From positions 248,001 to 312,000 of the forward strand of contig NZ_RBVY01000005.1 in the NCBI RefSeq assembly GCF_004000215.1: a stretch of DNA of 64,000 bases, in the 5' to 3' direction. The translations under genes were made by a program, and so were the position numbers. The DNA is from Nitratireductor alexandrii. Its GTDB lineage: Bacteria > Pseudomonadota > Alphaproteobacteria > Rhizobiales > Rhizobiaceae. The notes below the pieces were generated by a model. It worked only from the letters and a program-made list of their open reading frames with translations. It was not told the DNA's origin and did not search any database. Below are positions 1,566-43,935 of the stretch, in pieces; the stretch's first letter is position 1; each line of letters starts with the position of its first letter.

Positions 1566-2483
1566 ATGGCCGCACGGCGCTACGAAATCTACGACGTCTT
1601 CACCGACCGTGCGCTTGCCGGCAACCCGCTGGCGATCGTGCGCGACAGCGACGGGCTTACGGGCGAGGCGATGCAGGCCATCGCCGCCGAATTCAACCTG
1701 TCGGAAACCGTCTTTGTCGGACCGCCGGAAAACCCGGCCCATACCGCCAGCCTGCGCATCTTCACGCCGAAGACGGAACTGCCGTTTGCCGGCCACCCGA
1801 CCGTCGGCAGCGCGATCGCGCTTTACGAGGGCAAGGCACCGGCGGCGCCCGACGGCACCGCCCTTATCGTGCTTGAGGAAAAGATCGGCCCGGTGCGCTG
1901 TGCCGTCAGCGCGACGCCCGGCCGGGCGAGCTTCGCCGAATTCGACCTGCCGCGCCTGCCCGTGCCGGCCGCGCTGTCGGCCGAGCCGGAACTGATCGCC
2001 GCGGCCCTTTCGCTCGATGCCGACGAGATCGGCTTCGAAAACCATCGTGCCTCGGCCTGGTCGGCGGGCGTGCCTTATGTCTGCGTCCCGGTGGCCGGCC
2101 TCGAGGCGGCCGCCAGGGCCCGGCTCGACCCGCGACTATGGCTCGATATCGCGCCGCCGTCGGGCAACCTCATCCCCGGCGCCTATGTCTATTGCCGCGA
2201 GACGGTCGGCGAGGATTGCGCCTTTCACGCCCGCATGTTCGCCCCGCATGACGGCATTGTCGAAGATCCCGCCACCGGTTCGGCGGCGGCCGCCTTCGCC
2301 GGCGCGCTGGTCGCCTTCGACGCCCCGGTCGACGGGCCCGGCCATCACTGGATCGAACAGGGCGTCGAGATGGGCCGTCCGTCGCGCATCCGCCTGGAGG
2401 TCGAAACCGCCGGCGGCGCACTCACGGCCGCGCGCATCGGCGGCCACGCGGTCCGGGTCGCCGACGGGACGCTTTTCGTCTGA
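1566..2483 (+). CDS. PhzF family isomerase/epimerase-like protein
   Basis: A 305-residue protein of the PhzF fold, two similar halves each with a hot-dog-like barrel. The N-terminus has the family pattern YEIYDVFTDRALAGNPLAIV. The catalytic glutamate is expected in NLSETVFV (about residue 45), and the second half has DPATGSAAAAFAGAL. PhzF itself isomerises a phenazine precursor, but most chromosomal members, including this isolated one, have no known substrate, and there are no phenazine genes nearby. The start follows 99 bases of non-coding DNA after the transporter. It is likely a stand-alone gene; the next feature downstream is a tRNA with its own promoter. Confidence 0.88.
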   Translation: MAARRYEIYDVFTDRALAGNPLAIVRDSDGLTGEAMQAIAAEFNLSETVFVGPPENPAHTASLRIFTPKTELPFAGHPTVGSAIALYEGKAPAAPDGTALIVLEEKIGPVRCAVSATPGRASFAEFDLPRLPVPAALSAEPELIAAALSLDADEIGFENHRASAWSAGVPYVCVPVAGLEAAARARLDPRLWLDIAPPSGNLIPGAYVYCRETVGEDCAFHARMFAPHDGIVEDPATGSAAAAFAGALVAFDAPVDGPGHHWIEQGVEMGRPSRIRLEVETAGGALTAARIGGHAVRVADGTLFV

Positions 2484-2502
2484 ATTCTTCGTGTGTCGAG
2501 GC

Positions 2503-2531
2503 TTGCAACGGCCGAAACGAGCGGCTATAGA
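2503..2531 (+). promoter_or_regulatory. Probable sigma-70 promoter of tRNA-Lys
   Basis: TTGCAA at 2503-2508 and TATAGA at 2526-2531 are separated by exactly 17 bases and lie about 36 bases before the tRNA. This is a good match to housekeeping-sigma spacing in alphaproteobacteria. It is inferred from sequence only. Confidence 0.55.
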
Positions 2532-2566
2532 GCCGCACGCTCGTGCTCCTTGAGACACGGCCCCGT

Positions 2567-2642
<76 letters not shown>

Positions 2643-3105
2643 ATTATTTCAATGACTTAGCGGCAATGATAGCGGAACGCACCGTGAACGTGTGACCCGT
2701 CACACGGCACATGTGTGACTTTCTGGTTCCGGCAAGCCAATCTGACCCGCATTGTCGCGGCAATGCCCGGCCGCTGGCGGGCCGTTCCCACATCGCCGTC
2801 GGGCCCCCGCACCGCCCGCATTTTCGGCCATTCAGCTTCGGTTCACGCGCGATCGGCAAGATTTCGTCCAGTCAAAAACTCTGACGCCGAAATCGCCTGT
2901 AAGTTGAAAAATCCATGGCGGATTTCTGCAAGAGCAAGGTCAAAACAGGAACAGGGCGCGCCAGCGCTTTACCATGACGAGATTTCGTGCCTAGCTTTGT
3001 GTCCCGCGGGTGGTGTGAAGTGCTTCATTTACCCGGAGGGCAAGCGGACCTAGTGAAGGCCCGAATAAAAAGGGACAGATAGCCTGCCAGGAGGAGGAGC
3101 ATCCC
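2643..3105. other. 463-bp intergenic region before the repeat-protein gene
   Basis: No credible gene is visible on either strand. The region holds the inverted-repeat cluster at 2690-2719 (annotated separately) and ends with a strong purine-rich ribosome-binding site (GGAGGAGGAG) just before 3106. The A/T-richer stretch around 2870-2950 is a plausible promoter area, but I could not assign -35 and -10 boxes with confidence. Confidence 0.5.
2690..2719. promoter_or_regulatory. Cluster of three GTGTGAC half-sites (two interleaved palindromes)
   Basis: GTGTGAC at 2690-2696 is followed after two bases by its exact inverse GTCACAC at 2699-2705. After seven more bases comes a third half-site GTGTGAC at 2713-2719. 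The middle half-site can therefore pair with either neighbour as a perfect 7-bp inverted repeat, with spacers of 2 or 7 bases. Such an array suggests an operator for a dimeric regulator controlling the repeat protein at 3106, or a structured RNA segment. The regulator is unknown. Confidence 0.4.
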
Positions 3106-6100
3106 ATGGCCGCCAACCCGTTACATGCCCGTTATTTTTCACGCAATTCTCTCACCGGAAAACGCCTCGCCTTGGTTTCGGCGCTGCTTTTGGGGTCGTC
3201 CGCGCTGGTGCCCGCCGCTGTTGCGCAGGAGGCGCTGTCGGCAGGCGAGGCCTTTGCCACGCGCTTTTCCGGCACCACCGAAATCACCCTCGCCGACGGC
3301 GAGCGCCTGACCCTGATCGACGAAAGCGGCGTGGTCGGTTCCGTCGTCGACGTGCGCACTCCCGGCTTTGCCGCCGACGGCCGCCACTGGATCGACGAGC
3401 CGCAACGCCTTCCCGTTACCGCCGGCCAGGTCGGCCAGGTCTTCGGCATCGCCATCGATGACGGCAGCCCGGCCAATATCTACCTGACCGCCACCTCGCA
3501 ATTCGGCCTGCATCGCGATCCCGACAACACCGACTGGCTGCCCGGCCAATGGGGCGAAGGCGGTCCCGGCGGGCTTTACAGGCTCAACGCCGACAATGGC
3601 TACCAGCCGGAACTGCTGGCCGCGATCACGCTCGACGGGCGCGAAAACACCGGCGCCGGTCTCGGCAATGTCGCCTTCGACAAGGCGCACGGGCAATTGT
3701 TCGTCTCCGATCTCGAAACCGGCATGATCCACCGCCTGGCGCTCGACGGCACGCAGATCGACCGCTTCGACCACGGCGCGGCGGGGCGCACCGGCTTTCT
3801 CGACGCGATCACCGGCGAGAACGTGACCCTGCCGGCGGTCGCCTTCGACCCGGCCTCGGGCGCGGCGATCGGCGACTGCGCCGACGCCGGCGGGTCGCCC
3901 CAGACCTTCGCGCAGACGCCGGAATGCTGGAACTATGCCGATTTCCGCCGCCGCGTCTTCGGCCTCGCCGTGTTCACCGACCCGCTTTCGAACGAAACCC
4001 GGCTCTATTATGCCGTTTCGGGCGCGGACGGCATGGGCAATCCCGACTGGGACGGCGCCGGCGACGACGCCGCCAACAGTGTCTGGTCGATCGGCCTGGA
4101 CGAGAATGGCGGGTTTGACGGCACCGACGTGCGCCGCGAAATCGTGCTGCCGGAATTCGGCGGCGATGACGCCACGCCGCGCGCGGTGGCCGACCTCGCC
4201 ATTTCCAACGAAGGCGTGATGCTGGTCGGCGAGCGCGGCGGCGTTCGCAATCTCGGCCTCGATCAGCCGCAACCGTTCGCCACGCCGCATGCCGCGCGCG
4301 TGCTGCACTATACGCTGACGGGCGAAGGGTTCTGGTTCCCCCTCGGCCGCTACGATGTCGGCTTTCACGACCGCAAGTCGCTCGGCCCGCCGCATATCCG
4401 CGCCAATGCCGCCGGCGGTGTCGATTTCGGTTATGGCTATACCACCGACGGCACGATCGACGCCGAACGGCCCTATGGCAGCATCTGGGCCTCCGGCGAT
4501 TCGCTGTGCTCGCCCGACGGGCCCTGCCTGGAGCCTTCGAGCGGCGAACGCAACGACATTTCCGAGGTGCACGGCCTCCAGGGCACTCCGGTCGAAGCGC
4601 TCGACGAGGTGCTGCCCGAGGCCGCGCTCGGCGCCTATCCGGCAACCGGCGATCCCTATCCCGCCGACGCCGTGCTCGCCTCCTACATGATCGATCTCGA
4701 CACCAATATCGACGAGGCCGGCAACCCGATCGCCGTCGAGGCGCTCAAGCACGACGCCACCAAGATCGGCGACGTGGAAATCTATCGCGCCGGCCCGGGC
4801 GCCCCGCCGCCCGGAGAACCGGCCCTGCCGCAGCCGCAAGGCTACGATCTCGACATCGACAAGAGCGGTCCGGCCGAATGTCTGCCGGGTTCGGAATGCA
4901 GCTTCACCATCAAGCTGACCAATAACGGTCCGGCCGATTTCTCCGGTCCGGTCTATCTGTGGGACGTGATCGAACCCGAGGCGGCGCCGTTCGTCGACGT
5001 GATCGGAACCGGCTGGAACTGTTTCGAGCTCGACGCGGGCATCCAGTGCTACAATCCGAGCGTGACGCTCGGTGTCGGCGAATCGACGGAATTCGCGCTC
5101 AAGCTCTCCATTCCGGCCGGATATCGCTCCGACATCCTGACCAATTGCGTCAGCATCCAGTGGCTCTACGGTCAGGACGGCGGTGTCGACGTGCAGGCCA
5201 TCCAGGTCGCGCTCACGCTTCTGGGCTACGACCCGGGCCCGGTCGACGGCATTATGGGCCCGCAAACCCAGTCGGCGCTGGCGCAATTGCAGTCCGATAG
5301 CGGTCTCGACCCGACCGGCGAACTCGATGACGAAACGCTCGGCCTGCTCTATCCCGGCCTGGTGGGGATCATCGGCGATCTCGACAGCACCAACGACCAG
5401 GACTGCCACGATGTCGGCACCGGCGATCCGGCGCCGATCCACTCCAAGTGGAACTCGCATCTGAAGACTGGCTCGCCGCATAACAAGATCCAGTCGCATC
5501 TCAAGACAGGTTCGCCGCACAACAAGATCCAGTCGCACCTCAAGACGGGTTCGCCCCACAACAAGCTGCAATCGCACCTCAAGACGGGTTCGCCCCACAA
5601 CAAGCTGCAGTCGCACCTCAAGACCGGCTCGCCCCACAACAAGCTGCAATCGCACCTCAAGACCGGCTCGCCGCACAACAAGGTCCAGTCGCACCTCAAG
5701 ACGGGTTCGCCCCACAACAAGCTGCAATCGCACCTCAAGACGGGTTCGCCGCACAACAAGCTGCAGTCGCACCTCAAGACGGGCTCGCCCCACAACAAGC
5801 TCCAGTCGCATCTCAAGACCGGCTCGCCGCACAACAAGCTGCAGTCGCACCTCAAGACGGGTTCGCCCCACAACAAGCTGCAGTCGCACCTGAAAACCGG
5901 TTCGCCGCACAAGAAGACGCAATCGCACCTCAAGACGGGCTCGCCGCATAACAAGCTGCAGTCGCACCTGAAAACCGGCTCGCCGCACAAGAAGACGCAA
6001 TCGCACCTCAAGACCGGCTCGCCCCACAACAAGCTGCAGTCGCACCTCAAAACCGGCTCGCCGCACAAGAAGACGCAATCGCATCTCAAGACCGGCTCGC

Positions 6101-6696
6101 CGCATAAGAAGCTGCAGTCGCACCTGAAAACCGGTTCGCCGCACAAGAAGACGCAATCGCACCTCAAGACAGGCTCGCCGCATAACAAGCTGCAGTCGCA
6201 CCTGAAAACCGGCTCGCCGCACAAGAAGACGCAATCGCACCTCAAGACCGGCTCGCCCCACAACAAGCTGCAGTCGCACCTCAAAACCGGCTCGCCGCAC
6301 AAGAAGACGCAATCGCATCTCAAGACCGGCTCGCCGCATAAGAAGCTGCAGTCGCACCTGAAAACCGGCTCGCCGCACAAGAAGACGCAGTCGCACCTCA
6401 AGACAGGTTCGCCGCATAAGAAGCTGCAGTCGCACCTCAAAACCGGCTCGCCGCACAAGAAGACGCAGTCGCACCTCAAAACCGGTTCGCCGCATAAGAA
6501 GGTGCAATCGCACCTCAAGACAGGCTCGCCGCACAACAAGGCGCAATCACACAAGAAAATCGGTTCGGTCAGGCCGCACAACAAAGCGCAGTCGCACAAC
6601 AAGACCGGTTCGGTCAGGCCGCACAACAAGCTGCAGTCGCATCTGAAAAAAGGCTCGGCGATCGAAAAGCCACCGGCTTTCCTGCCTAAGCTCTAG
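3106..6696 (+). CDS. Secreted multidomain protein with DUF11/peptidoglycan-binding fusion and 28 cationic 13-residue repeats
   Basis: A 1196-residue protein of unknown function. Residues 1-40 form a signal peptide (basic NSLTGKR, hydrophobic core, AVA cleavage), so it is exported. Residues about 42-570 form an Asp/Gly-rich, propeller-like region with segments such as GLGNVAFDKAHGQLFVSDLETG. A DUF11-like beta domain starts near 580 (DLDIDKSGPAECLPGSECSF) and runs to ILTNCVSIQW (677-686). It is then interrupted by a PG_binding_1-type domain (about 693-752, VQVAL...LGYDPGPVDGIMGPQTQSAL pattern) and resumes with GDLDSTNDQDC (757-767). Residues 785-1148 are 28 tandem copies of HLKTGSPH[N/K]Kx QS, then degenerate copies to about 1182. 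A GGAGGAGGAG ribosome site supports the start. The likely role is an envelope or surface protein binding peptidoglycan and polyanions or metals, but this is inference. Confidence 0.9.
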   Translation: MAANPLHARYFSRNSLTGKRLALVSALLLGSSALVPAAVAQEALSAGEAFATRFSGTTEITLADGERLTLIDESGVVGSVVDVRTPGFAADGRHWIDEPQRLPVTAGQVGQVFGIAIDDGSPANIYLTATSQFGLHRDPDNTDWLPGQWGEGGPGGLYRLNADNGYQPELLAAITLDGRENTGAGLGNVAFDKAHGQLFVSDLETGMIHRLALDGTQIDRFDHGAAGRTGFLDAITGENVTLPAVAFDPASGAAIGDCADAGGSPQTFAQTPECWNYADFRRRVFGLAVFTDPLSNETRLYYAVSGADGMGNPDWDGAGDDAANSVWSIGLDENGGFDGTDVRREIVLPEFGGDDATPRAVADLAISNEGVMLVGERGGVRNLGLDQPQPFATPHAARVLHYTLTGEGFWFPLGRYDVGFHDRKSLGPPHIRANAAGGVDFGYGYTTDGTIDAERPYGSIWASGDSLCSPDGPCLEPSSGERNDISEVHGLQGTPVEALDEVLPEAALGAYPATGDPYPADAVLASYMIDLDTNIDEAGNPIAVEALKHDATKIGDVEIYRAGPGAPPPGEPALPQPQGYDLDIDKSGPAECLPGSECSFTIKLTNNGPADFSGPVYLWDVIEPEAAPFVDVIGTGWNCFELDAGIQCYNPSVTLGVGESTEFALKLSIPAGYRSDILTNCVSIQWLYGQDGGVDVQAIQVALTLLGYDPGPVDGIMGPQTQSALAQLQSDSGLDPTGELDDETLGLLYPGLVGIIGDLDSTNDQDCHDVGTGDPAPIHSKWNSHLKTGSPHNKIQSHLKTGSPHNKIQSHLKTGSPHNKLQSHLKTGSPHNKLQSHLKTGSPHNKLQSHLKTGSPHNKVQSHLKTGSPHNKLQSHLKTGSPHNKLQSHLKTGSPHNKLQSHLKTGSPHNKLQSHLKTGSPHNKLQSHLKTGSPHKKTQSHLKTGSPHNKLQSHLKTGSPHKKTQSHLKTGSPHNKLQSHLKTGSPHKKTQSHLKTGSPHKKLQSHLKTGSPHKKTQSHLKTGSPHNKLQSHLKTGSPHKKTQSHLKTGSPHNKLQSHLKTGSPHKKTQSHLKTGSPHKKLQSHLKTGSPHKKTQSHLKTGSPHKKLQSHLKTGSPHKKTQSHLKTGSPHKKVQSHLKTGSPHNKAQSHKKIGSVRPHNKAQSHNKTGSVRPHNKLQSHLKKGSAIEKPPAFLPKL
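5458..6549 (+). repeat. Tandem array of 28 in-frame 39-bp repeats
   Basis: Exactly 28 units of 39 bp run from 5458 to 6549 with no length variation, followed by degenerate units to about 6650. Eleven of thirteen residues are invariant; only position 9 (Asn in 16 units, Lys in 12) and position 11 (Ile, Leu, Val, Thr or Ala) vary. The array encodes 56 His and 68 Lys and no Asp or Glu. Units 12-17 (5887-6120) and 18-23 (6121-6354) are a 234-bp block duplication differing at one base that I can find. Confidence 0.97.
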
Positions 6697-6774
6697 GCAC
6701 GTGCAGTTCAAAGGCGCGGGGGGCCTGCAGGCCAGGCTCCCCCGCAGATCCCGACGATGGGAATGGAGATCGAT

Positions 6775-7815
6775 ATGATACCGGCATCATTCATGCCGCG
6801 GGGCTTTGCTTTTGCCCGGCTTTGTTTCGGCCTGGCGGCCGCGGCGATGGTTTGGGCGCACCCGGCCGCGGCTGCGTCCACCAGCACGATCACGACCAAC
6901 GAAGCCTATGTCGACGCCGTGCGTGCCGCGCCGGCTTTCGACATCACCGACATCGACGCGGTGTTCGACCACGTGTTTTCCCAGCTCAAGGACGACGTCA
7001 CCGTCTATCCGACCGAAAACTACTACTATTTCAAGTTCATCCATGACGCGGTGCCTTATGCCGGCAATTTCCGTCTCGACATCGCCGACCGCGACGACGG
7101 CATCGTCCACTTCGCCTATTTCACCGAAAACAATCCCTTCACCGAGCAGGAACTGTCCAAGCATCGCGCCTATAGCGCCGCGCTGGGCGTGACCGTGGAG
7201 AAAAAGGACGACCTCACCTATGCGCTGACCCGCAAGGGGCGCACGGTGACCTTCCATCTCAACGATCTGCGCGACGTGCGGATCCCGAAATCGAAGCTCG
7301 GGCCGGGCGAGGACTATCTCGGCCCGGTCTTCGACGAGGCCGGCGTGCAGATGTTCTTGTTGTGGAACCAGGAACTGAAAATGTTCCTCTACGTGCTCGA
7401 CGACAACGTGCCGTCGGAATCCTATTTCCAGTCCGAGACGTCGACCCAGGTCAGCATCGGACGACGCACCGGTTTCGCCTGGTACCAGGACCGCTATCTC
7501 GACCGCCAGATCCTGGTCGGGGTGCGCGCCTACGAAACCTCGCTCAACACGTTTTTCGACGGGCCGTTCGACCAGCTGCCGGACAATTTTCTGGAGGGCG
7601 ACGTGCTGCGCCGTGCCCTGCTCGAGCTCAGCCCCGAAGTCGAGGGCCAGATCGACAGGTTCGGCAATTCGCGCGACCTCTCCGGCCGCATGCTGGTCGA
7701 CCCCTATCTGCTCTATGAAGACCAGAGCGAATTTACCGTGCTCGATCAATGCGCCGCCGCCGCCGTCGATCCGGCGACCTATTATCCCTGCTTCGCCATC
7801 GGCCAGAGCAAATAA
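6775..7815 (+). CDS. Secreted protein of unknown function next to the repeat protein
   Basis: I do not recognise a family. The protein is 346 residues from the ATG at 6775, which is preceded by GGAG at a 6-base spacing; an in-frame ATG at 6757 is possible but has no such site. Residues 1-34 look like a signal peptide (FMPRGFAFARLCFGLAAAAMVWAHPAAAA). The mature part is rich in Asp, Tyr and Phe (TENYYYFKFIHDAVPYAGNF, DYLGPVFDEAG) with two late cysteines (DQCAAAAVDPATYYPCF) that could form a disulfide. It lies 78 bases after the cationic repeat protein on the same strand. The mature protein looks acidic, so an electrostatic partnership with the repeat protein is conceivable but unproven. Confidence 0.8.
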   Translation: MIPASFMPRGFAFARLCFGLAAAAMVWAHPAAAASTSTITTNEAYVDAVRAAPAFDITDIDAVFDHVFSQLKDDVTVYPTENYYYFKFIHDAVPYAGNFRLDIADRDDGIVHFAYFTENNPFTEQELSKHRAYSAALGVTVEKKDDLTYALTRKGRTVTFHLNDLRDVRIPKSKLGPGEDYLGPVFDEAGVQMFLLWNQELKMFLYVLDDNVPSESYFQSETSTQVSIGRRTGFAWYQDRYLDRQILVGVRAYETSLNTFFDGPFDQLPDNFLEGDVLRRALLELSPEVEGQIDRFGNSRDLSGRMLVDPYLLYEDQSEFTVLDQCAAAAVDPATYYPCFAIGQSK

Positions 7816-39854: not shown

Positions 39855-42800
39855 TCAGCGCCCCGGTGAATGGGACTTCAGAAATTCTTCGATGTCCATC
39901 GCGTCGAAATCGAGTTCCGAAGCGGAACCCGGCCTCGGTCTCGGCGGCCGCGCGGGCGGCGGCAGCGGCGTGCGGGTGATCGTGTCGGTCGATGCGGTCC
40001 CGGCCTCGTCGACCGGCTCGCGGGCCTGTTCGCGCGCGGCCTGTTCCGCACGAAGCCGCGCCTCCTCCTCCGCGCGCCGCCGGGCCTCGTCCTCGGCGCG
40101 GATGCGCGCGGCCTCTTCCTCGGCTTTCTGGCGCGCGGCCTCTTCCTTCGCCTTCAATCGCGCTTCCTCCTCGGCCTGGCGCCGCTCTTCCTCCTCGGCC
40201 TGGCGCGCGGCCTCTTCCTCTGCCTTCAACCGCGCGGCTTCCTCGGCCTGGCGCCGCGCTTCCTCGTCGGCCTGGCGCCGCGCTTCCTCGTCGGCCTGAC
40301 GCGCGGCCTCTTCCTCCGCCTTCAACCGCGCGGCTTCCTCGGCCTGGCGTCGCGCCTCTTCTTCCGCCTGGCGGACGCGGCGCAATTCGGCAAGCTGCGT
40401 GTAATAGCGCACTTCGCGCCGCAGCCGCTGCTTTTCGAGCAGTTCGGCCTGCATCTTTTCCACCCGCGCCTGTTCGCGCTCGAGCGCGCGCTGGGTCAGG
40501 AATTGCGCCAGCGGCGCGGTATCGAAACGGCGCATCACATTGCCGATCGGCCCTTCGGCGACAAAGCCGACCACCGGCTCGGACCCGACCACCGCCTCGT
40601 CGCCGGCCTCGTAACGAAGCTGCCCGTCCATCGACACCGCGCCGGAATTGAGATCGGCGCGGGCCTGCGTCTCCAAACGCGCCGCACCGGCCTCCATGAA
40701 CAGCGGCGGCGTACGGATCACGCCGCCGGCAATGGTGAAGGGGGCAACGATTTCGCCGATCCCGAGCGTCCCGTCGGCGACCAGCGCAGGCGCGAAACCG
40801 GCCGTCTGGTCTGCGGTGATGTCGCGGCCGATCTCGTCGGCGCGCGCCAGGATCGGCCCGAGCGCGTCCGCACTCAGGCCCGGCACGGCAAGCCCGACGA
40901 ACCGCGCCGTGCCCGATCCCGTCAGCGCCGCGATCAGCCCGCCGACGGTGCGCCCGCTTGCCGTCGCCGACGCGCTCAGATCGGCGCTGCCGCCCAAACC
41001 CGGCGCGCGCAGCAGCGTCGCGCTGTCGGCGCCCGCGATCTTCAGTTGGGCCGAAAACAGGCCCGCCCCCTGATTGTTGTTGAGCTCCGCAAGCCCTTCC
41101 AGCGAACCGCCGACGAAGCCGGCCTCAAGATCGGCGAGCCGCAGCCCTTCCCGGTCCAGCGCCAGAGTGAAGCTGGCCTCCTCCGCGCTCAGCCAGGCAC
41201 CGACGCCGAGCGTGCCGACCTCGAACGCCAGCCGCCCGGTAAACGGCACCGTCGCGGCCTGGACAAACGGCGCGTCGGGCCAGCCCTCGCCGTCATATTC
41301 GATCGCCCCTTCGCCGAGCACCAGCCCGGCCGCGAGCGCGAGATCGAACCCGCCGAGCGCGAGCCTGCCGGCGAGATCGGGCATCCCGTCCGCGAGCCGC
41401 GCCCGCAAATCTCCCGAAACCGTATTGCCGGCGAGATTGCCGGCGATCTCGGAAAGCGTGAGCACGCCCCCCTCCAGCGCGACATCGCTTTTGAGATCGG
41501 CGGGAAGCCCGAGCCCCATGCCGGGCAGGGTCAGGCCCGAGGTCATCAGCCACGGTTCCAGATCGTCGCCCGACAGGTCGAGCCCGCCCTTGGCCGACAG
41601 CGCCATGCCGTTTACCGTGGCGCTGCCGGAAAACCGCGCCTGGGCCTGCGGCGACAGGAGCGCGAACCGGACCGCGGCGCCTTCCGACAAGGTGCCGTCC
41701 ACCGCCAGTTGCGCCGTGCCTTCGCCGGTCAGGCCGAGATCGAAGGCCGGCAGGCCGGCAAAGGCCAGCAGTTCGGCGGTATTCGTGGTTTCGGCCTCCA
41801 GCGACAGCGCCAGCGGCGCGCCGAAAAGGTCGCCGTCGAAAGCCTCCGACGACAGCGACAGGCTGACATCGCTGTCGCCGATATGGCCCTGCGCGCCCAG
41901 CGATGCCTGGCCCGGCCCCGCGCCGGCGCGCTCCAGGCTCGCCACCATGTCGATCTGCGCGTCGTCCATCAGCCCCTGATAGGCATCGGCCCGGCCGGCA
42001 AGCGCGGCCGCCAGGGCGTTTTGGGGAAAGCGCGCCGCCACCAGCCGCGCGAACGGGGCGAGATCGCCGGCGAGGATGGAGGCGTCGACGGAGCCGCTCG
42101 GCCGGCCGTCAATGTCGCGTAGCTTCGCCGTCGCGCTGATATTGGCGCCGGCCAGGCCGGTCACCGCCAGCCGGTCGATGTCGAGCTGGTCGCCGCGCAG
42201 CCTGAAGGCGGTATCGACCTCCTCGGCAGCCAGGCCCGACAGCCGCACCGGCCCCGCCTTCAGGCTGAAATCGATGTCGTGGCCGCCGAAATGGGTCACG
42301 CCGGCATCGCTGACGAACAGCGAGGCGAATGCCGCCATGCCGTCGACGTCCAGCGCCTCGCCTTCCAGCTTGGCGGTCATGGCCGGCCGCACGGCGTCGC
42401 GCCGCTGGCGGTCGAGCGAGCCGCGAAACCGCGCCGTGCCCAGGATCAATTCCAGATTGTTGAAAAGCTGGCGCTCGGCGCCCAGTTCGACATCGGCGGC
42501 GAAACCGGCGGCCGGCAGGCGCCGGATCGCCTCGTCGACGTCGCGCGCAAGCCAGGCCGCGAAGCCCGACGGCTGACCGACCGCCAACAAAAGCCGGCCG
42601 TCGAAGCGCATTGCCTCGCCGGCCGAAATCAGCCCGTTCGCCTCCAGCCGCGTGCGGCCGGGCAGCGTCGCGCGCAGCGTGTTGACCGTCCAGCCGTCCG
42701 CGCCCGGCTCGGCCGAGAACGACACGTCGCGAATGGTGGTATCGCCGGCCACGATCGCCGGCAGGTCGATGTCGACCGTGCCCGCGATGCCCGGCCGCGG

Positions 42801-43811
42801 CAGGTCGAGCACGGCCTCGTTGAGCGCGTCCAGGCGATCCTGCAGCGCCAGGCCGGTTATGTCGCCTGCTTCGCCCTCCCCGCGGTCGAGCCGCACCTGC
42901 GCGCCGGTCGCCTGGATCAGGAAACGCGGCGAGACGCCGAAATCGAGCAGCGCGGTGCCGTCGGCGGTATAGGGGTCGTCGAGCGTACCGGTCTCGAGCC
43001 GAAACTCCGAAACGTCGAGCCGGTTGTTGTCGAGCGTGAACGCGCCGGCGAAACGAAAGCCGGCCGGCGCTTCGGGCTGCTCGCCCGTCTCGCCGTCGGC
43101 GCTGCGGATGCCTGCATCCAGTTTGAAGCGGCCGTCATAGCTGGCCGCCCCGTCATGCAGCCGCGCCCGGCCGTCGGTTTCCAGCGCGAAGGCGCGGTCG
43201 CTCGGGCGCACCCGCGCGCGCAGCCGCAACGTGCCGTCGTCCTCGACGGTACCGGTCGACAGCGTGACCGCCGCCGCCTGCCCGTCGAGGCGCATCGATC
43301 CGTCGAGCCGCCACGGCCCGGCGAGCGTGCGCGCGGCGATCTCGGCATTGATCTCGCTGACAATATGCTCGCGGCCGCTGAGCGCATGACGCAGCCGCAC
43401 CCTGCCTTCGGCCACCGTGATCTTTTCGAGCGATATTTGCGACGGATCGAAAAGGCTCGCCGGCCGCGCCGCCCAGTCTATGGTGCCGTCCTCGGCCACC
43501 GTGATGACCGCCGACGGCCGCTCGAGCCGCATGTCGAAGATCAGGATCTCGCCGCGCAGGAACGGCGACAATTCCGCGTCCATCGAGAAGCTGTCGACCG
43601 TCATCTGCGGCTCGCCGGGCGTCGCCCCGGCCACCCTGACATCGGTGAACCGCACCGAGGGGAACGGCAAGAGCCGCGCCGTGGCGGTGCCCTCCACCGT
43701 GACCGCGCGGCCGAGTATGCGGCTTGCCTCGCGTTCGAAATCGGCGCGATAGCTGGTCCAGTCGACAAAATAAGGCCCCACCAGCGCCGCGGTGAGCACC
43801 AGCACGATCAA
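39855..43811 (-). CDS. Giant AsmA family protein with C-terminal coiled coil
   Basis: At least 1318 residues. An N-terminal membrane segment (LVLTAALVGPYFVDWTSYRADFEREASRILGRAVTVEGTATARLLPFPSVRFTDVRVAG) is the hallmark of AsmA/TamB-like proteins, which form long hydrophobic grooves across the periplasm for lipid transfer. The middle is repetitive beta structure. Residues about 1120-1257 are an Ala/Glu/Arg/Lys coiled coil (EEAARLKAEEEAARQ pattern), followed by a Pro-rich stretch and an acidic tail (ELDFDAMDIEEFLKSH). The given start is TTG. The frame continues upstream as FLARLFVFIGG, and AGGAG seven bases before a CTG at 43841 suggests the true start may be that CTG. Confidence 0.88.
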   Translation of the reverse strand: MIVLVLTAALVGPYFVDWTSYRADFEREASRILGRAVTVEGTATARLLPFPSVRFTDVRVAGATPGEPQMTVDSFSMDAELSPFLRGEILIFDMRLERPSAVITVAEDGTIDWAARPASLFDPSQISLEKITVAEGRVRLRHALSGREHIVSEINAEIAARTLAGPWRLDGSMRLDGQAAAVTLSTGTVEDDGTLRLRARVRPSDRAFALETDGRARLHDGAASYDGRFKLDAGIRSADGETGEQPEAPAGFRFAGAFTLDNNRLDVSEFRLETGTLDDPYTADGTALLDFGVSPRFLIQATGAQVRLDRGEGEAGDITGLALQDRLDALNEAVLDLPRPGIAGTVDIDLPAIVAGDTTIRDVSFSAEPGADGWTVNTLRATLPGRTRLEANGLISAGEAMRFDGRLLLAVGQPSGFAAWLARDVDEAIRRLPAAGFAADVELGAERQLFNNLELILGTARFRGSLDRQRRDAVRPAMTAKLEGEALDVDGMAAFASLFVSDAGVTHFGGHDIDFSLKAGPVRLSGLAAEEVDTAFRLRGDQLDIDRLAVTGLAGANISATAKLRDIDGRPSGSVDASILAGDLAPFARLVAARFPQNALAAALAGRADAYQGLMDDAQIDMVASLERAGAGPGQASLGAQGHIGDSDVSLSLSSEAFDGDLFGAPLALSLEAETTNTAELLAFAGLPAFDLGLTGEGTAQLAVDGTLSEGAAVRFALLSPQAQARFSGSATVNGMALSAKGGLDLSGDDLEPWLMTSGLTLPGMGLGLPADLKSDVALEGGVLTLSEIAGNLAGNTVSGDLRARLADGMPDLAGRLALGGFDLALAAGLVLGEGAIEYDGEGWPDAPFVQAATVPFTGRLAFEVGTLGVGAWLSAEEASFTLALDREGLRLADLEAGFVGGSLEGLAELNNNQGAGLFSAQLKIAGADSATLLRAPGLGGSADLSASATASGRTVGGLIAALTGSGTARFVGLAVPGLSADALGPILARADEIGRDITADQTAGFAPALVADGTLGIGEIVAPFTIAGGVIRTPPLFMEAGAARLETQARADLNSGAVSMDGQLRYEAGDEAVVGSEPVVGFVAEGPIGNVMRRFDTAPLAQFLTQRALEREQARVEKMQAELLEKQRLRREVRYYTQLAELRRVRQAEEEARRQAEEAARLKAEEEAARQADEEARRQADEEARRQAEEAARLKAEEEAARQAEEEERRQAEEEARLKAKEEAARQKAEEEAARIRAEDEARRRAEEEARLRAEQAAREQAREPVDEAGTASTDTITRTPLPPPARPPRPRPGSASELDFDAMDIEEFLKSHSPGR

Positions 43812-43935
43812 GCCGCCGATGAATACGAACAGACGGGCCAGAAACCTGCTCCTGAGTCGTCGATAGCCGACACCTTACCCCGATCGGCGTGTCGATAAAG
43901 TGGCGGCGCCGATCCCGGCCAGCGCGAAAAACCCG

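Follow-up and report, generated by a model that had tools for sequence, protein, structure and literature searches.

Exported proteins with H-x4-[S/T] arrays and an adjacent partner gene point to an undescribed extracytoplasmic system in Hyphomicrobiales

The 64,000-nucleotide stretch of Nitratireductor alexandrii analysed here (positions 248,001 to 312,000 of contig NZ_RBVY01000005.1; hereafter the window) encodes a large secreted protein, the carrier, with a C-terminal tail of 13-residue repeats. Each of these repeats is composed of two units, SHLKTGS and PHNKxQS, in which a His residue is followed five residues later (position +5) by a Ser residue. This H-x4-S pattern was overlooked in the first-pass annotation of the carrier, and so was a gene, here named DG, that starts 60 bp 3' of the carrier gene on the same strand. 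Otherwise unrelated secreted proteins with the pattern H-x4-[S/T] are encoded beside DG, which suggests that an undescribed system recognises the pattern or alters it chemically. As judged from sequence comparisons, DG and the motif are very probably functionally linked, and we infer that DG would contact the motif directly. The chances that DG covalently modifies the motif units appear to us to be about even.

Spacing of His and Ser/Thr in divergent tails

In the window, the 28 repeats have a constant length of 13 residues from aa 784 to aa 1147, with variation at positions 10 and 12 alone, and they contain 56 His and 68 Lys residues but no Asp or Glu. The number, constant length and composition of the repeats had been described correctly in the first-pass annotation, as confirmed by a repeat count and by the program TRF, which delineates a 39-bp array at 5455-6641 with a score of 1452. 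Most differences among the 28 units are silent (dS 0.57, dN 0.057), but the dN/dS ratio of 0.10 is descriptive only, because the repeats are not independent. All 61 counted His residues of the window tail have Ser or Thr at +5. The arrays expand and contract fast: three close relatives have 28, 24 and 29 units.

Homologues of the carrier were first found in 61 related genomes, and later also beside DG. Their tails look unrelated to each other, being built from segments such as SFHRPPKSPHLPRG, GSVVHRPR, SWHSRDR, THRRRGSPVHTPRA and SQFHLTWGSAYHD. For comparison, we kept tails with at least nine His residues. Four of them were dropped as same-genus copies (L035, L115, L086 and L090; L006 and L035 are apparently one gene) and two were removed by hand because they are associated with neither an array nor DG, namely L110 (6% of 16 His with Ser/Thr at +5) and L117 (11% of 9). 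In the resulting set of 22 divergent tails, which includes that of the window, of the 857 His residues with any residue at +5, 802 have Ser (742) or Thr (60) at this position, compared to 142.6 expected from composition. The +5 offset accounts for at least 75% of the His residues in all 22 tails, and any other offset between -12 and +12 does so in at most one. The residues found at +5 in the 55 exceptions are mostly His, Pro, Gln or Arg, and never Cys or Ala, which indicates that it is the hydroxyl that is kept. Interleaving of units is very rare, with 2 pairs of the 802 motifs overlapping, and distances of less than 6 between His residues were about six times rarer than in shuffled sequences (61 observed versus 356). 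Position +2 favours Lys, Arg or Pro, and position -1 favours Ser, Val or Phe, neither of them being fixed. The charge of the tails varies as well, the net values of L079 and L092 being -0.6 and -4.5 per 100 residues, respectively, and thus not basic. Acidic residues make up 11.6-20.8% of five tails (L036, L069, L071, L079 and L092), and H-x4-[S/T] is still fixed in these. The largest array, in the carrier of L115, counts 69 units. Searches of the open-access literature for the motif, written as HxxxxS or HX4S, returned nothing, and those for DUF11 with His-rich repeats or for Nitratireductor arenosus returned nothing on point.

Genomic association of DG with the motif

When DG alone was used as the query, an open reading frame (ORF) with H-x4-[S/T] motifs was present within 2.5 kb in 35 of the 43 loci that were found. 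Four further loci (L112, L115, L035 and L036) were not counted because they had been found through the carrier. Seven homologues of the carrier scaffold that have no DG in the fetched flanks (L109-L111, L113 and L116-L118) also have no array. Arrays without DG in the fetched stretch occur at three loci (L114, L120 and L122), each at a contig end; many loci come from fragmented genomes, and arrays break contigs. Aside from a quinone-oxidoreductase-like ORF and ATPases of ATP-binding cassette (ABC) transporters, the carrier and DG, with the frames overlapping them, were the only families seen in more than three family groups of neighbourhoods, of which about 2 kb downstream was covered. The constant unit is the motif array plus DG, and the peptidoglycan (PG)-binding domain of the carrier is optional.

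This association was also examined prospectively, with a neighbour criterion that was fixed before new genomes were drawn. Six further DG genes were obtained from four new genomes, and five of them had an H-x4-S neighbour with 5-10 motifs per 60 residues. In a stricter test (p < 1e-3), 9 of 234 ORFs near DG at the 15 loci without a propeller carrier were positive, whereas 264 kb of background, with 951 further ORFs, gave none.

Within the order, 40 of 297 genomes carry DG, and a larger draw gave 44 of 397. DG was found in 2 of 385 genomes drawn from the class (the own genome of the window and G567) and in 1 of 299 drawn from the phylum, which is again the own genome, with none among the 298 others. 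No match to DG was obtained in 72,556 plasmid records. The N-terminal domain of the carrier was unmatched in 12 of the 40 genomes with DG.

Short exported partners of DG

Some DG genes are not accompanied by a propeller carrier and are instead adjoined by short exported proteins of several kinds, with Sec- or Tat-like signals as read by eye. One such partner, f30, contains the motifs HWRWGS and HNRARS. A Tat-like Arg-rich type comprises f36, f37 and f23, the latter joined by eye only, with HRRWRS, HSRRRS and HYRRRS. The f44 type consists of two tandem proteins (6/6 His with Ser/Thr at +5), f31 has HIGKPS and HKPVGS (17/17 and 17/19 His), and f34 has HNKWKS (5/9 His). In a set of 12 small partners, 80 of 96 His residues have Ser/Thr at +5, compared to 13.4 expected, while the next best offset reaches 19 of 96. 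This set omits the near-copies L098, L099 and L102, and also four small ORFs at L104/L146 with lower counts (5/8, 3/6, 3/7 and 5/11). Masked BLASTP at an E-value of 1e-3 joins only pairs of the same type within the set, and in a smaller protein set f36 and f37 were also linked at 4e-4. The f30 partner was found in five of eight genomes, which are exactly the five that have DG, and three unlinked paralogues in the f30 genus (L141-L143) have no array.

At one locus (L121, G072:C102, 2099-9186), a single DG is flanked by a DUF11-PG protein without propeller (54/55 His) and by a propeller protein (23/29). The second DG of the same genome, G072, has a small Tat-like partner (L103).

The DG family

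Neither Pfam nor NCBIfam gave a match to the DG protein of the window up to an E-value of 1. In an alignment of 35 of the 48 DG sequences, some of them trimmed, 17 residues are invariant, including R106, D193, R237, R250, D268, D272, Q273 and two Cys, and the DG bodies are net acidic in 45 of the 48 sequences. A coupling of C-terminal acidity of DG to basicity of the tail was considered and rejected as not general, L094, L101 and L105 having basic extensions. Kinases among the Foldseek matches of DG (E-values of 0.04-0.9, TM-score of about 0.1) were likewise not accepted as evidence. At L074 (G048:C1, 640-3167), a tandem pair of DG genes follows one H-x4-S tail, and the second of them has a long acidic C-terminal extension.

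Comparison with known systems

By analogy, the nearest counterpart of the pair is the cotB/cotG/cotH module of Bacillus subtilis. In the cited literature, a dedicated kinase polyphosphorylates many serines in basic repeats of 6 and 7 residues, and what CotG-like proteins have in common is their layout, their repeats and their chromosomal organisation, not their sequence (PMC7821199, PMC9765600). As with the CotH kinase (PF08757) and its substrates, the genes in the window are adjacent, a basic Ser-containing repeat protein lying beside DG. Unlike the Cot module, the DG pair is exported in Gram-negative Hyphomicrobiales rather than found on spores, and its repeat unit is H-x4-[S/T]; to our knowledge, CotG repeats do not keep the +5 spacing.

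A second possible chemistry is suggested by the lanthipeptide noursin with its histidinobutyrine, in which, according to PMC10206099, a His is crosslinked to a residue derived from Thr. By analogy, the H-x4-[S/T] unit could support the same chemistry. However, lanthipeptides are made from small precursors of ribosomally synthesized and post-translationally modified peptides with LanKC synthetases, whereas DG is exported, as read by eye. No Pfam match to a lanthionine synthetase was found up to an E-value of 1 in the DG members, DG being the sole neighbour scanned, and none was seen beside the carriers. Fam20C, a eukaryotic secretory kinase, recognises S-x-E sites as stated in PMC5775333, and is thus a secretory-pathway enzyme that reads a two-residue code on secreted proteins. 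The code and the kingdom are different here, and the likeness is offered as an analogy. Lastly, the scaffold of the carrier uses both domains of known DUF11 and PG_binding_1 surface proteins, but neither the H-x4-S tail nor DG belongs to these families, and both are also found in their absence.

Proposed mechanism and rival explanations

The explanation that in our view accounts best for the data overall is a two-gene module in which DG would modify each unit after export, in a CotH-like manner; we consider it just as likely to be right as to be wrong. The first gene would export the carrier, composed of a propeller, DUF11 and PG-binding scaffold with a C-terminal string of H-x4-[S/T] units that is probably disordered, and the second gene would export DG as a dedicated partner acting on these units outside the cytoplasm. 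DG would be an enzyme that alters each unit covalently. The Ser/Thr hydroxyl would serve as acceptor, and the His would act in recognition or as a second reacting residue. The tail would thereby become a modified element of the surface or matrix, as is the case for the basic repeats of CotG and CotB upon the action of CotH. Since one His and one hydroxyl are kept at a fixed spacing while their neighbours vary, a modification site fits better than a docking surface, and an enzyme fits a ratio of tens of sites to one or two DG genes.

More tentatively, and with less than even confidence, DG might be the first known representative of a new class of exported enzymes that modify proteins in Hyphomicrobiales, reading H-x4-[S/T] in any exported chain and converting every unit. 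The chemistry might be a transfer to the hydroxyl, such as phosphorylation, or a His-Ser/Thr crosslink closing a six-residue ring. The cell surface would then display a chain of dozens of modified beads, and the 'code' would have been gained several times by unrelated secreted proteins. Were the proposed two-gene module to be confirmed, one large bacterial order would have an exported system directed at a two-residue code that occurs up to 69 times in a single protein. This would represent a new type of extracytoplasmic system for modification or multivalent docking, the partner family of which is unnamed in the libraries searched, and it would provide a function for an unannotated family and for proteins that resemble low-complexity sequence.

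Several observations weigh against a modifying enzyme or against a general link between DG and the motif. With respect to the former, DG is without an assignable enzyme family, fold or catalytic motif. Searches of Pfam with 35 DG members gave only five single-member matches with E-values of 0.086 or worse, and there was no match to a PDB profile up to an E-value of 10. The structural model of DG is weak (predicted local distance difference test (pLDDT) 61, predicted template modelling score 0.60), because it was built from only three sequences; it gave no Foldseek match at an E-value of 0.001, and the VIA structural comparison gave Z-scores of at most 3.6. No member of the CotH family was matched by the 35 DG members in Pfam up to an E-value of 1, and hhalign of DG against 8 CotH domains, taken from 8 of 10 CotH loci with L165 and the partial L161 left out, gave a Probab of 0.13 (percent scale) and an E-value of 0.44. 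The own genome gave no PF08757 match, although the control search was positive in B. subtilis. By these three tests, DG is not a CotH.

With respect to the genomic link, 8 of the 43 loci fail. Six of these (L068, L089, L097, L100, L107 and L108) are without any array, L077 fails at a contig end (2/2 His fit), and L091 fails with 2 motifs, its ORF being a homologue of the partner at L093. The DG of G567 has no motif array nearby, and among the six new DG genes of the prospective test L170 is without an H-x4-S neighbour. The loose criterion was also satisfied by 10 of 179 overlapping background windows, all from two ORFs with exactly 3 motifs, and L093 and L106 have just 3 motifs each as well. 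The stricter test was passed in only 6 of the 15 loci without a propeller carrier, with L091, L093 and L106 among those failing. Other neighbours recur too: 9 loci, from 3 families, have the quinone-oxidoreductase-like ORF, as read by eye, on the upstream side, and 12 loci contain generic ABC ATPases, whose positions are scattered. The tails partly share ancestry, and the 22 tails are therefore not independent; the same partial sharing of ancestry applies to the DG genes. Placing the 'small partner' label on the DG tree requires 3 changes, but only 1 is forced by well-supported branches.

Loci with DG but without an H-x4-S neighbour comprise L089 and L100, which belong to family f7, and also L097, L107, L108, L068 and L170. 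At such loci, DG may act on a target encoded far away in the genome, or it may have a different role. About 20 kb on each side of DG in G129, G042, G097, G141 and G137 contained no array at p < 1e-5, in a test that is blind to short partners; the same test also passes over the short partners of f30 and f44 in L139 and L140. A search with the tail in seven DG genomes matched the PG-binding part of the query (6-102) and is uninformative on H-x4-S proteins elsewhere in G042, G129 and G097. At L068, the quinone-oxidoreductase-like ORF (6263-7387) lies directly before DG, whereas in its sister L067 a carrier separates this ORF (2372-3832) from DG, and the carrier of L068 looks to have been lost from this same site.

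The main rival is a non-covalent reader: DG would dock on each unit, and the carrier would gather many DG copies with a logic resembling that of cohesin and dockerin. Such a reader would be consistent with a short linear motif that is fixed and present in many copies between variable linkers, with the acidic DG bodies facing mostly basic tails, and with the lack of a recognised catalytic family in DG. The conservation of only the His and the hydroxyl among varying neighbours, as well as the ratio of up to 69 units in L115 to one or two DG genes, nevertheless argue more for chemistry, and we therefore regard docking as rather unlikely.

We consider it improbable that the array itself is the working part, as a polymer rich in His and Lys/Arg that would bind metal ions or polyanions at the surface with DG as a helper in export or assembly. 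The window tail is indeed strongly basic and rich in His, and the carrier of the window has a PG_binding_1 domain, which is why the first-pass annotation had proposed a wall-anchored polycationic binder of DNA, lipopolysaccharide, exopolysaccharide or metal ions. The architecture on which that proposal was founded stands, but the relatives do not point to an anchor with a polycation, as the charge and the PG domain vary among them whereas H-x4-[S/T] is constant. Moreover, a Ser/Thr at +5 would not commonly be expected to serve as a metal ligand, and the metal-type ABC permease that was recognised by eye upstream of the carrier has no conserved counterpart beside other DG loci in the fetched neighbourhoods. 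The tail may still bind metals or polyanions.

Finally, it is very improbable that the motif is a functionless relic of repeat expansion inherited by related tails, since the fast growth and shrinkage of the arrays that would favour this is offset by the few amino-acid changes versus many silent ones within the array and by the recurrence of the motif in unrelated small proteins next to DG.

Carrier protein and other features of the window

The features of the carrier and DG are listed in Table 1. The PG_binding_1 domain (PF01471) was matched in Pfam with an E-value of 9e-15 and 55 bits, well above the cut-off of 23. DUF11 (PF01345) was matched at aa 581-669 with an E-value of 0.014 and 16.1 bits, under the cut-off of 24.6, and passes the cut-off with 30.3 bits in the homologue L095; the domain is for this reason termed DUF11-like. 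The NC and ND..C strands of the DUF11 signature are separated by 82-83 residues, with the PG motif in between, in carriers such as L001, L082, L088 and L115, and by 86 residues in L095, versus 13-18 residues in L117, which has no PG motif. The PG domain has therefore been inserted into the DUF11-like domain, and the nesting claimed in the first-pass annotation is borne out by both the Pfam match and the strand spacing. Likewise, no prior description of this architecture was found in the open-access literature. Of ten carrier stretches scanned with Pfam, four matched PG_binding_1 (L082, L088, L095 and L121) and six did not (L067, L069, L070, L075, L083 and L101), and wall binding is therefore not a core property.

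Table 1. Features of the carrier gene and its partner, with window coordinates.
Feature	Position	Strand	Basis
Carrier protein, 1196 aa, secreted	3106..6696	+	ORF call
Signal peptide, about aa 1-40	3106..3225	+	read by eye
N-terminal propeller-like domain, about aa 45-560	3238..4785	+	no Pfam family in window protein; weak fold support
DUF11-like (Ig-like) domain, first part, aa 581-686	4846..5163	+	Pfam below cut-off; homologue L095 above
PG_binding_1 domain nested inside DUF11-like domain, aa 693-748	5182..5349	+	Pfam and strand spacing
Last DUF11-like strand with ND..C motif, about aa 757-770	5374..5415	+	strand-motif comparison
28 x 13-residue repeats = 56 H-x4-S units (SHLKTGS / PHNKxQS)	5455..6546	+	TRF, repeat count
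Degenerate array end, H-x4-S still kept	6547..6660	+	repeat and His-offset counts
Partner gene DG, 352 aa, secreted by eye, without known family	6757..7815	+	60 bp downstream, same strand

The N-terminus is propeller-like with weak support from modelling. Foldseek listed propellers of the YWTD/NHL type (nidogen 1npe, E-value of 1.8e-4; TRIM2, E-value of 1.4e-3), but the underlying model, built from three sequences, is poor (pLDDT 38) and the sole match in the PDB profile search was methanol dehydrogenase with an E-value of 0.18. The signal peptide was read by eye. Sequence matches of the carrier protein in the PDB were PG-binding chains, NLRP5 via the tail, and two weak others, and we took the NLRP5 match to be compositional. 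A TGase_elicitor match (E-value of 3.6e-5) in one member of the carrier alignment did not recur in six whole homologues that were scanned.

Compared to the close relative N. arenosus (L035, 93% identity), dN/dS was 0.115 for the carrier without tail and 0.112 for DG. Compared to the more distant L115, the respective values were 0.205 and 0.263. No match to a sigma-70 promoter was found, and terminator matches were at chance level. Some carrier homologues (L016 and L020, same gene as L117) end in Cys- and Pro-rich repeats rather than His-Ser arrays, and the type of C-terminal tail seems to be exchangeable among carriers.

Just upstream of the carrier, the window contains the above-mentioned metal-type ABC transporter permease (75-1466) and a PhzF-like ORF (1566-2483), both as read by eye. 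Further downstream, a 24-bp tandem array of about 13 copies is located at 40055-40373, within a minus-strand frame of 1339 codons (39858-43874) of which the start appears AsmA-like by eye.

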